Shown here one piece after another: positions 11,882-14,497 of a stretch of DNA of 64,000 bases; position 1 is the stretch's first letter; the number at the start of each line of letters is the position of its first letter. Source of the DNA: Achromobacter sp. MYb9 (GTDB lineage: Bacteria; Pseudomonadota; Gammaproteobacteria; Burkholderiales; Burkholderiaceae_B). The stretch covers positions 558,001-622,000 of the forward strand of contig NZ_PCOQ01000001.1 in the NCBI RefSeq assembly GCF_002975275.1. Reading direction: 5' to 3'. A model generated the notes under the pieces. That model made no database searches. It was not told the DNA's origin and saw only the letters and a program-made list of their open reading frames with translations. The translations under genes were made by a program, and so were the position numbers.

Positions 11882-13417
11882 ATGTCGAGTCTGATCGAAG
11901 CCATCCACCGCGCCGATGACGGCCATGACCACGCGCAGATGCTTGCCTTGTGCGAACGAGGCGTGCGCGAACAGCCCGGTTCCGCCGAAATGTGGGCCCT
12001 GCGCGCCCGCTATCACGACAAGCGCGGCGCCCACGCGCTGCGCGATGCCGACCTGGCCCGGTCGCTGGCATTGGACCCGCAGTGCAGCGACGCCCTGTGC
12101 GTACGCGCCACCGCGCTCTATGACGCGGGCGAACAGCAGGAGGCCTGGCGCATCGTGCGCGAAGGCCGTCAGCGCGCGCCCTCGCACTTCGGCTTGATGA
12201 TGTCCGAAGCCTATCTGCTGATCAACGACCGCCGCCTGGATGCCGCCATCGAATGCTGGACCCGCGCCTCGCAATTGCGGCCGTCCGCCGCGGCGCCGCA
12301 TTGCTATATCGGTTCCAACCTGCATAACGCTGGCCGCTACCAGGACGCGCTGCCCTACCATCAGCGCGCCGTCGCGCTGGCGCCCAATAACGGTGGGTTC
12401 CTGTACGACGCGGGCAACAACTACCGCCGCCTGGGCGACCTGAAGAACGCTATCGCGATGTTCGACCGCGCCCGCGCGATCCTGGGCGAGGAAAACGCCA
12501 TCCAGCACAACCGGGCCTCGTGCCTGCAAGCGCTGGAGCGCCATGAAGACGCGGTAGAGGAATGGACCAGCCTGCTGCGCCGCGAGCCCGATTGGGATTG
12601 GCCGCTGGAAGGCAAGGCGCGGTCCCTGCACCGGCTGGGCCGCGCGGACGAAGCCGCGCCGCTGTGGCGGCATCTGGACGCGCTGTCGGACTCCGGCTGG
12701 GAAGGCCGCAAGGAACAGGCCCGCGAATTCGTGCGCAGCGGCGACCCCGAACTGGCCGAAAAGGCCTTGCAAGGGCTGGACCCGATGGAAAGCGGCGACG
12801 CCCAATTGCTGTTCGTGGCGGGCAACGCCCAGCGTGACCAGCGCAACTGGGAGCAAGCGTTGGCCTATTACCTGCGCGGCTACGAGATCGCGCCCGACAA
12901 CGATTTCCTGCCCGGCAACGCCGCCGACATGCTGACCCGCCTGGAACGTTACGACGAAGCCCTGCCTCTGTCGGAAGTAGCGATTTCCCTGGACCCCGAC
13001 TGGCTGAAATGGCGCCGGGTCCGCATCGACGCCCTGACGAACCTGGGCCGCGGCGCCGAAGCCGTGGCCGATGCCGATCGCGCTCTTGTGAAGTGGCCGG
13101 ACAGCGGCCCGCTGCACGCCGAACGCATCAACGCGTTGAATGCGGCCAAGCAGTATGAAGCAGCCCTGGCCGCGTGCGACCGCCTGGTCGGGCTGGATCC
13201 CGACTACCGCAGTTGGGCCCTCTTTTCACGGGGAGAAATCTACGGCCACTTGAAGCGCCATGCCGAATCGGCCATGGCTTTCCGCCAGGCCGCCGCCTCG
13301 TACCAGCAGAACGGCAAAGCCAATTACCAGGACCTGTCGCTGCGCCGGGCCCAGGCCGCGGAAGAGGCCGCTGCCTCGCCGCGCGGGTTCCTGGGCCGCT
13401 TGTTCGGCCGGAAATAG
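11882..13417 (+). CDS. tetratricopeptide-repeat protein
   Basis: The 511-residue, apparently cytosolic protein consists of tandem TPR-like helical pairs with the expected small/aromatic spacing (for example ALPYHQRAVALAPNNGGFLY and ALAYYLRGYEIAPDNDFLPG). No signal peptide or catalytic domain is visible. The C-terminus is a short basic tail (RGFLGRLFGRK) that could touch membrane or protein. It probably serves as a scaffold for the RDD/pilin-like protein encoded just upstream; the partner is inferred only from adjacency. Confidence 0.8.
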   Translation: MSSLIEAIHRADDGHDHAQMLALCERGVREQPGSAEMWALRARYHDKRGAHALRDADLARSLALDPQCSDALCVRATALYDAGEQQEAWRIVREGRQRAPSHFGLMMSEAYLLINDRRLDAAIECWTRASQLRPSAAAPHCYIGSNLHNAGRYQDALPYHQRAVALAPNNGGFLYDAGNNYRRLGDLKNAIAMFDRARAILGEENAIQHNRASCLQALERHEDAVEEWTSLLRREPDWDWPLEGKARSLHRLGRADEAAPLWRHLDALSDSGWEGRKEQAREFVRSGDPELAEKALQGLDPMESGDAQLLFVAGNAQRDQRNWEQALAYYLRGYEIAPDNDFLPGNAADMLTRLERYDEALPLSEVAISLDPDWLKWRRVRIDALTNLGRGAEAVADADRALVKWPDSGPLHAERINALNAAKQYEAALAACDRLVGLDPDYRSWALFSRGEIYGHLKRHAESAMAFRQAAASYQQNGKANYQDLSLRRAQAAEEAAASPRGFLGRLFGRK

Positions 13418-13525: not shown

Positions 13526-13837
13526 GCCCGAGTGGTGAAATTGGTAGACACAAGGGACTTAAACTAATTTGAGCCCTTTGGAGGAAACTCCAAAGGTGTA
13601 GCCCGTCAAATTCGGCGAACGCCCTGGACCTGTTCCGAGCCAACGCCGAGCCAAGCCCCGGTTGAAAAACCGGGGAAGGTGTAGAGAGCAGACGGCGGGC
13701 ACCTAAGGCCGCAAGGCTATGGTGAAGGCGTGCTCCAGACCACGAACAGCGTTTTCGCGCTGGCGGCGAAAGCCGAAGTGGTAAGAAAATCCCTCGGCCG
13801 CAAGGCCGTACCGGTTCGATTCCGGTCTCGGGCACCA
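13526..13837 (+). tRNA. tRNA-Leu (anticodon TAA), gene interrupted by a group I intron
   Basis: Two exons, 13526-13560 and 13786-13837, join to an 87-base leucine tRNA with encoded CCA. The acceptor stem GCCCGAG/CTCGGGC, D-arm GGTGAAATTGGTAGACAC, anticodon stem AGGGA/TCCCT and T-arm are complete. The anticodon loop CTTAAAA exists only after removal of the 225-base intervening sequence, which sits after the first anticodon base (U34), the same place as in cyanobacterial and plastid tRNA-Leu(UAA) genes. The 5' exon ends in U and the intron in G, as group I splicing requires. A TATAGT -10-like hexamer lies at 13485-13490. Confidence 0.96.
13561..13785 (+). ncRNA. group I self-splicing intron (IC3 type) in tRNA-Leu(UAA)
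   Basis: The intron is 225 bases and has no reading frame. Visible elements in order: the internal guide GAGCCCTTT (13571-13579) pairs with the 5' exon end, placing a U-G pair at the splice site; P2 is a nine-pair stem with GAAA loop (13575-13596); P element TCAAATTCGGCGAA (13606-13619); Q element AACGCCGAGCCAAGC (13642-13656); P6a is an eight-pair stem with GAAA loop (13656-13675); R element from 13676 with P7 5' strand GAGCA (13686-13690); P8 with GCAA loop; P7 3' strand TGCTC (13731-13735); P9 stems; terminal G 13785. The P, Q and R blocks closely match the Azoarcus tRNA-Ile intron as I recall it. Confidence 0.94.
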
Positions 13838-13882
13838 CTATTCTTGCCGTTAAAAGGCCTTGGCCTTTCACCCTCCCCCATC

Positions 13883-14497
13883 TTGACCGCTCCCGCCGCT
13901 CCTGCCCCCTTTATCGTCCTGGACGCCTGCGTGCTGATGTCCGGCATCCTGCGCCGGCTATTGCTGCGCCTGGCCGAGGCTGGCGTGTTCATTCCGGTCT
14001 GGACGGAGCGCATCGGCGAGGAGTGGCGCCGCAACGCCTCGCGCATCTGGGACATTCCGCCGGAAGTGCTGGCCGAGTTCTGGGCCGACATGAACGCCCG
14101 CTTTCCCCAGGCCAACGAAGCCGACACGCAGGTCTATGAAGCGTCGCTGCGCTACAGCGACCCGAAAGACTTCCATGTGATTGCCGCGGGCTTGGCCCGG
14201 CGCGCGCGCTGCGGCCTGCAACAGCCGCCCGTCGTGCAGATCGCCACCTGGAACCTGAAGGATTTCAATCGGTCGGAATTGCGCCGTCAGGGGCTGGATG
14301 TGTACAACCCGGACCGCATGCTGCTGCAATGGTGGCAAGGCAACGCCGAGCGCATGCGCGAAGCCATCGCCCAGATCCCCGCCGACTACGTCGCGCTGGG
14401 CCGCGAGCCCGAGCCGCTGTCCACGACCTTGCATCGTGAACGCCTGTATGGCTTTAAAAGCCTGGTGGCGCGCGACACGGACAAAAAAGCGGGCTGA
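13883..14497 (+). CDS. PIN-domain protein (putative endoribonuclease), no antitoxin nearby
   Basis: The predicted 204-residue protein begins with the PIN motif PFIVLDACVLMSG (first acidic residue Asp14) and later has SDPKDFHVIAAG and the ATWNLKDFN block with further acidic residues, as in PIN_3 proteins. PIN domains are Mg-dependent single-strand RNases, often VapC toxins. No short antitoxin gene adjoins it. The only start outside the tRNA that keeps the first motif is TTG 13883, so the start is uncertain; the first ATG lies after the catalytic Asp. It lies 45 bases after the intron-containing tRNA-Leu and may be co-transcribed with it. Confidence 0.7.
   Translation: MTAPAAPAPFIVLDACVLMSGILRRLLLRLAEAGVFIPVWTERIGEEWRRNASRIWDIPPEVLAEFWADMNARFPQANEADTQVYEASLRYSDPKDFHVIAAGLARRARCGLQQPPVVQIATWNLKDFNRSELRRQGLDVYNPDRMLLQWWQGNAERMREAIAQIPADYVALGREPEPLSTTLHRERLYGFKSLVARDTDKKAG

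Follow-up and report, generated by a model that had tools for sequence, protein, structure and literature searches.

A group I intron in the tRNA-Leu(UAA) gene of Achromobacter sp. MYb9 and related introns in the replacement tRNAs of conjugative islands

Results

A split tRNA-Leu(UAA) gene

The window analysed here, a stretch of 64,000 nucleotides from contig NZ_PCOQ01000001.1 of Achromobacter sp. MYb9, carries at 13526-13837 on the forward strand a tRNA-Leu(UAA) gene that is predicted by ARAGORN, with introns allowed, to give a spliced product of 87 nt after removal of a 225-nt intron following U34 (Table 1). Default ARAGORN, run without introns, made no call at 13526-13837, and Rfam at the gathering cut-off across the window reported neither a tRNA nor an intron there, in keeping with the warning of the first-pass annotation that standard finders could miss or mis-call the gene. 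The same annotation had proposed a search with RF00028, the Rfam group I intron family, as a check: no match was found in the window at the gathering cut-off, in the 551 bases around the gene at E ≤ 1 or in the MYb9 genome at E ≤ 10, a lax limit at which the control is weak as well (8 of 14 known genomes match, two of them above the cut-off). RF00028, which is a detector and not a defining trait of group I introns, was dropped after giving no match, and our own covariance model of the intron core (R1) was used instead.

Table 1 Features of the split tRNA-Leu(UAA) gene and its neighbours in the window.
Feature	Coordinates	Strand	Basis or remark
TPR-repeat protein gene, upstream neighbour	11882-13417	+	
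tRNA-Leu(UAA) 5' exon, U34 as last base	13526-13560	+	ARAGORN, introns allowed
P1: 5'-exon GGGACUU against intron UUUGAGCCC; U13560 facing G13571	13554-13576	+	folds; guide 13568-13573
Group I intron, 225 nt, final base G	13561-13785	+	ARAGORN with introns; core covariation
P2 hairpin, GAAA loop	13576-13596	+	
P3 5' strand and J3/4 (GCCCGTCAAA)	13601-13610	+	covariation core
P4-P5	13612-13649	+	P4 5' strand 13612-13617, 3' strand ~13644-13649 from alignment
P6 hairpin	13656-13675	+	covariation core
P7 5' strand (GAGCA), then P3 3' strand (GACGGCGGGC from 13691)	13686-13700	+	
P8	13700-13724	+	covariation core
ORF overlapping the tRNA	13730-14497	+	weak PIN_3 match just under Pfam cut-off
P7 3' strand (TGCTC)	13731-13735	+	
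P9.0 and P9 region (ACCAC ... GTGGTAAG), GAAA loop within 13764-13775	13739-13785	+	outside pair count
tRNA-Leu(UAA) 3' exon including encoded CCA	13786-13837	+	ARAGORN, introns allowed

The predicted intron displays the traits of a group I intron, with a U before it, a U-G pair in P1, a terminal G and a P3-P8 core with the P3/P7 pseudoknot. GAAA loops are seen in P2 and P9, and the first-pass placement in subgroup IC3 is a tentative one. Local folding pairs the 5'-exon CUU with the guide GAG, which places U34 (13560) opposite G13571. In an alignment of 15 cores (14 genomic and one from a plasmid), 96.2% of the cells for the 37 chosen P3-P8 pairs show the pair formed, and 19 of the pairs vary on both sides; the structure was read from the same sequences, which favours the fit. 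None of 500 shuffles reached any of the five measures, and the fold of the pre-tRNA was better than that of all 100 shuffled sequences (z -4.73). The two P7 strands are GAGCA/TGCTC in introns of the Leu lineage, GACTT/AAGTC in a Ser intron and GACTC/GAGTC in one further intron (L033). The first-pass proposal of a group I intron at 34/35 of a tRNA-Leu(UAA) gene is confirmed at the sequence level for 13526-13837 by the ARAGORN call with introns, the U·G pair of P1, the terminal G and the covariation of the core.

The MYb9 genome (6.68 Mb in 59 contigs, completeness 100) gave 52 tRNA matches, 51 of which were assigned an anticodon by ARAGORN (L081 is without one). Its other leucine tRNA genes carry the anticodons CAA, TAG, CAG (two copies) and GAG; the split gene is the only one with UAA found in the 59 contigs, and a search of this genome for further pieces of tRNA-Leu(UAA) at E ≤ 0.001 returned none, apart from a match to the intact CAA gene. 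Decoding of UUA requires a UAA tRNA, and because the split gene is the sole UAA gene found, its splicing would be needed to read UUA codons. tRNA-Ile(GAU) and tRNA-Ala(UGC) are absent from the tRNA list, so that the assembly does lack some tRNA genes.

The downstream ORF that overlaps the tRNA probably has its true start 3' of the tRNA, and a PHROGs search with it gave no match; some PIN toxins cleave tRNA anticodon loops. The window also holds a tRNA-Ser(UGA) gene at 1455-1542, 12 kb from the split gene.

Distribution and phylogeny of the intron

The split gene is present in all seven genomes of the genus that were sampled (MYb9 and six others) and is a resident gene of its genus. In the family, 27 of 151 genomes hold 31 full-length matches, 17 in Leu(UAA) and 14 in Leu(CAA). 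The core covariance model, roughly calibrated and applied at E ≤ 1e-4, gave matches in 47 of the 300 order-level genomes and in 52 of the 274 class-level ones, each count including MYb9; many of the class-level matches are weaker ones (~25-45 bits). Hosts of the introns read, which are a subset of these matches, are Leu(UAA), Leu(CAA), Ser(UGA), Ile2(CAU), Arg(CCU) and other tRNAs. With the same Leu 34/35 site found in many genomes of the family, order and class, the earlier view of this site as a hallmark of cyanobacteria and plastids does not hold. For several distant introns ARAGORN gave labels (Phe, Stop, Thr and others) that are unreliable because boundaries shift, and the analysis relied on Leu, Ser and Ile2-like scaffolds.

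All 45 Leu(CAA) introns of an 89-intron tree fall into a single clade (100/99), which is nested among the Leu(UAA) introns. The branch uniting this clade with six of the seven introns from the window's genus has values of 89/96 and is not starred; the remaining intron of the genus, L010, is not resolved by the tree. Intron-bearing tRNAs match at 97-100% identity across different genera. Both the nesting and these matches bear out the suggestion of the first-pass annotation that the intron moved between tRNA genes or lineages.

The usual rule for group I introns is a U·G pair at the 5' splice site. The Leu(CAA) introns are preceded by C34, which pairs with the guide G as C-G (L020, L022-L030, L143-L146 and L187-L235); as this goes against the rule, splicing of these copies might, to judge from their sequences, be poor. 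They would also offer a natural C-G pair at a 5' splice site.

Two further observations concern other hosts. Ser(UGA) tRNAs with an intron after U34 adjoin an intact tRNA-Leu(UAA) at five loci (L032, L147, L149, L150 and L152). ARAGORN puts the intron between 33 and 34 in the Ile2-like tRNAs L110, L111, L113, L159, L177 and L179 and after 36 in others, i.e. at two sites in one loop.

Islands that split tRNA-Leu(CAA) and carry an intron-bearing copy

One scan of an 84,980-species collection gave 49 named loci that match the start of the intron-bearing Leu(CAA), from hosts including Bordetella, Pusillimonas, Variovorax, Polaromonas, Acidovorax, Comamonas, Cupriavidus, Caballeronia, Mycetohabitans and Candidatus Vallotia. 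ARAGORN detected a complete split tRNA in 47 of them, the remaining two lying at locus edges, and TrbI of a conjugation system was found on the 3' side in 17 of the 49. Twenty-five of these genomes were searched with the Diaphorobacter copy, and the counts that follow are from the matches listed. In eight (G712, G713, G715, G718, G719, G720, G723 and G734), a single contig holds a lone native 5' half, the intron-bearing tRNA and a lone native 3' half in this order, with the two halves 14-73 kb apart. The halves lie on different contigs in five genomes, and G716 has a 3' half alone among the matches listed. An intact intronless Leu(CAA) is retained beside the intron-bearing copy in four (G724-G727), and seven genomes (four Vallotia, two Mycetohabitans and Cupriavidus G735) are without Leu(CAA) halves among the matches listed.

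The junctions, of which eight left ones for Leu(CAA) and ten right ones were printed, read ...GACTCAAAA|ATAGG... on the left and ...CTC|AAAATCC... on the right. Both carry CTCAAAA, so the 7 bp they have in common are the anticodon loop, and in the island's own Leu(CAA) copy the intron interrupts this very CTCAAAA loop. The replacement tRNA is complete and lies ~200 bp from one island end. At the eight left junctions the native 5' half passes into island sequence; the target tRNA is not restored by attP. Compared by eye, the islands of Diaphorobacter, Variovorax and Pseudorhodoferax have the same left end for ~190 bp, and the native half of Diaphorobacter differs from those of the other two.

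The halves in Diaphorobacter aerolatus are 66.9 kb apart, and the 20 ORFs scanned include genes for TrbI, VirB8, TrbL, a TrbE-type protein, a T2SSE ATPase, a coupling protein and DUF3363 as well as catabolic genes; the gene of a tyrosine integrase stops 181 bp short of the 3' half. Halves of the target gene at the two ends and a tyrosine integrase near one of them are the signature of a tRNA-targeting island; both halves share a contig in the eight genomes named above, and the integrase was found in G712, G029 and G713. This layout, comprising the fold, the split halves, the replacement copy and its distance and the trb and integrase genes, is as read from the nucleotide sequences.

Four endosymbiont genomes of Candidatus Vallotia (1.1-1.2 Mb) have both Leu(CAA) and Leu(UAA) as intron-bearing genes, with no intronless copy among the matches listed. 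Their Leu(CAA) introns nest within the Leu(CAA) clade that contains the island copies, as expected if the islands were lost and the replacement kept.

A second island type was also seen at L183, L189, L218 and L186 (G103/G727), in which an intact intronless tRNA-Leu(CAA) adjoins a different integrase and an inverted intron-bearing copy lies 2-5 kb off; L183 has relaxase and cytosine methylase genes in addition, and G727 has an additional lone 3' half 22 kb distant. Pusillimonas caeni (L184) carries two intron-bearing tRNA-Leu(CAA) genes on the same strand; the 4.7 kb that separate them contain ATPase-like ORFs.

Controls on the layout

A native 5' half ends 192-258 bp upstream of the intron-bearing tRNA in 25 of the 46 testable named loci, the flank being too short in the other three of the 49, and 24 of these 25 halves run into CTCAAAA (the exception is L227). 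The same 5'-half test applied downstream gave 0/44, and a reversed probe gave 0/46. A search with the island-end (att) pattern, in which the intron is not required, found 11 sites in 268 family genomes, and the reversed pattern found none. Leu(CAA) with its intron follows ~200 bp further at nine of the 11; L261 is cut by a contig end and L266 is without it. A tRNA half precedes seven of the 11 sites and is absent before four, which are perhaps tandem or secondary sites.

An automatic half test was positive at 3 of 50 testable Leu(UAA) loci, at 4 of 29 testable Ile2-like loci and at 9 of 22 further Leu(CAA) loci, a set that overlaps the named loci; Ser(UGA) (0/6) and Arg(CCU) (0/5) gave no positives, and neither did the two controls. 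The test missed at least one case that was seen by eye (G735, L282). Given the low counts outside Leu(CAA), the layout is common only for this tRNA.

The same layout at Leu(UAA) and Ile2(CAU)

In G029, a Leu(UAA) 5' half (GGGACTTAAAA|TCTG) is followed by an intron-bearing Leu(UAA), which starts 203 bp after the start of the half, and a lone 3' half lies 45 kb away. The trb, TraG and DUF3363 genes of this element are 68-91% identical to those of the Leu(CAA) island, and its integrase, at 67%, ends 180 bp before the 3' half. Further Leu(UAA) 5' halves were found at L018, L286 and L090 (labelled Phe by ARAGORN) and, by eye, in G735.

An Ile2(CAU) case was found in G180, with a 5' half that starts 231 bp upstream, a 3' half 32 kb downstream and CTCATAA in common. 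None of nine Leu-island marker proteins matches this island, which carries restriction genes and genes that are presumably Zorya-like, a name given from their domains. One of its proteins is called an integrase by PHROGs (E 1.2e-31), with no Pfam family match. The Ile2-like loci L170, L174 and L178 have 5' halves as well. The intron lies after position 34 of the loop in both Leu types, after 36 in the Ile2 tRNA of G180 and, by eye, after 33 in L178.

The window gene has no tRNA half within 1.5 kb, nor was one found in the MYb9 genome at E ≤ 0.001, and none of the nine island marker proteins matches the window. An island origin of this gene is possible. Most Leu(UAA) and Ile2-like introns, the window's among them, are without a nearby half, so islands would be one home of these introns and not their sole home.

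Discussion

We think it fairly probable that the window gene is a working, self-splicing tRNA-Leu(UAA) gene and that the same intron lineage also serves islands, where it would mask the att site of the replacement tRNA in DNA. In the window precursor, the 225-nt intron would leave the anticodon loop by guanosine-started self-splicing, with the U34·G pair of P1 setting the 5' site and the terminal G marking the 3' site; such splicing presumably takes place in the cell. An island would integrate at the 7-bp crossover that is the anticodon loop of the tRNA, thereby breaking the gene, and would bring in, close to one of its ends, a whole tRNA of the same species as a replacement. The intron inside the 7-bp loop of the replacement would split a would-be att site, hiding it both from the integrase of the island and from related enzymes, and self-splicing would rebuild the loop in RNA. 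A replacement without the intron would in turn be exposed to the integrase, and for this reason masking, with self-removal from RNA, is taken as the most likely function of the intron and one that may have been selected. Resident introns such as that of the window may remain from lost islands. The broader proposition, that islands as a class use the ribozyme as an att-site mask against self-integration and rivals and that resident intron-bearing tRNAs, the window's included, are domesticated leftovers, is put forward tentatively, at somewhat less than even confidence.

A plainer account is that of an ordinary group I intron which entered Leu(UAA) by reverse splicing or gene conversion, was inherited and spread neutrally, was taken up within its tRNA by islands through chance and has no part in integration, group I introns and integrases both favouring anticodon loops. 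This would agree with the lack of a nearby tRNA half at the window gene and most other Leu(UAA) and Ile2-like intron loci, and with the CTT found before the intron in Leu(UAA) as well as in Ser(UGA), which would be expected of a guide able to enter several tRNAs. We nevertheless regard it as rather unlikely, given that in islands of three tRNA species the crossover loop of the replacement is where the intron sits, and that nine of the ten att sites with enough flank carry it although the pattern that found them did not require it. The resident gene itself might be decaying and no longer spliced, with UUA read by a second tRNA-Leu(UAA) hidden in an assembly gap; the 59 contigs, the two tRNAs absent from the list and a visibly decayed relative on a Cupriavidus plasmid would allow for this, but the exons combine into a full tRNA, 7/7 congeners conserve the intron core and its pairs covary across relatives, which renders such decay highly improbable.

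The replacement tRNA might instead serve mainly to defend the host or the island, for instance against anticodon nucleases or rival islands, the intron then guarding against rivals and not against the island itself. The restriction and Zorya-like genes of the Ile2 island point in this direction, as does the archaeal proposal that an intron gained in attB shields the host or the integrated element against later invaders (available text of PMC3293823). However, the eight fully mapped cases all have a split native gene and, among the matches listed, lack an intact intronless copy, so that a plain replacement would already be needed. We consider defence as the main role improbable, and it and masking are not mutually exclusive.

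The trb backbone of the Leu islands is one that we take to resemble the Tn4371 family. Like other trb-type conjugative islands, they have TrbI/F/L/E, a coupling protein and a tyrosine integrase; unlike those, they enter the anticodon loop and carry an intron-bearing tRNA beside one end. Group I introns in proteobacterial tRNAs are known from Azoarcus and Agrobacterium (tRNA-Ile/tRNA-Arg), and the core of the window intron presumably resembles that of the Azoarcus intron. The tRNA-Leu(UAA) intron of cyanobacteria is, we assume, also at 34/35, as is that of the window. The excerpt available of PMC4033280 describes cyanobacterial and plastid introns that share the tRNA, the insertion in the anticodon loop and the group I fold with the window gene, whereas the latter is betaproteobacterial and has relatives in several tRNA species and on mobile islands. 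Group I introns occur in Ile2 of Acidovorax and Burkholderia, and tRNAscan-SE 2.0 was not designed to detect them (accessible part of PMC8450103). The proteobacterial Ile2 and Arg introns are the same kind of ribozyme in anticodon loops and are likewise missed by tRNA finders; the accessible part of that paper mentions neither Leu nor islands, while the introns described here are tied to split native tRNA genes.

Islands collected by Islander share the tyrosine integrase, the crossover in the anticodon loop and the displaced tRNA fragment with those described here, and in them, according to the available part of PMC4383910, the tRNA fragment of attP restores the target, leaving one tRNA and one fragment; here, in contrast, both fragments persist and the putative replacement is a complete tRNA of its own with an intron. 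In archaea, an intron at 24/25 of tRNA-Thr recombined into the host gene through attP and was proposed to hinder further integration (Sugahara et al. 2012, available text of PMC3293823; echoed in the accessible part of PMC8371274). A mobile element thus supplies the intron in both cases, with a block to integration proposed in each, whereas here the intron is a group I ribozyme that lies in an additional, complete tRNA gene, and the hosts are bacteria. In the open-licence PMC literature, nothing was found that ties group I tRNA introns to integrative islands.

If masking is true, a group I intron would be a working island part: as a ribozyme it would keep the replacement tRNA gene out of reach of a DNA recombinase and afterwards excise itself from the RNA. 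This would explain why bacterial tRNA introns occupy anticodon loops and shift between tRNA species, and would bring the evolution of ribozymes, integration at tRNA genes and horizontal transfer together under a single scheme open to testing. Finders that expect one tRNA and one fragment, or that skip introns, would be expected to miss such islands and report missing tRNAs. The window gene alone is a modest addition, as a predicted group I intron in the sole tRNA-Leu(UAA) gene found in a genome outside the cyanobacteria.

Relatives in phage and plasmid collections

Twenty-one records of a phage collection match the query, none of them at 80% query coverage, and 1273 records of the plasmid collection (PLSDB) have a partial match covering at most 67% of the query, of which two were examined. 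In pCTX-M3 (NC_004464.2, L064:2389-2687), an enterobacterial resistance plasmid, a tRNA-Leu(UAA) that to the eye seems complete, and to be interrupted at the same site by a group I intron, lies near aac(3)-IId; its ARAGORN label is wrong, and PLSDB annotates nothing at this place. Plasmid p1 of Cupriavidus sp. KK10 (L065:1950-2250) carries the decayed relative, which consists of the start of tRNA-Leu(UAA) and the intron, with unrelated sequence in the 3' half of the intron.
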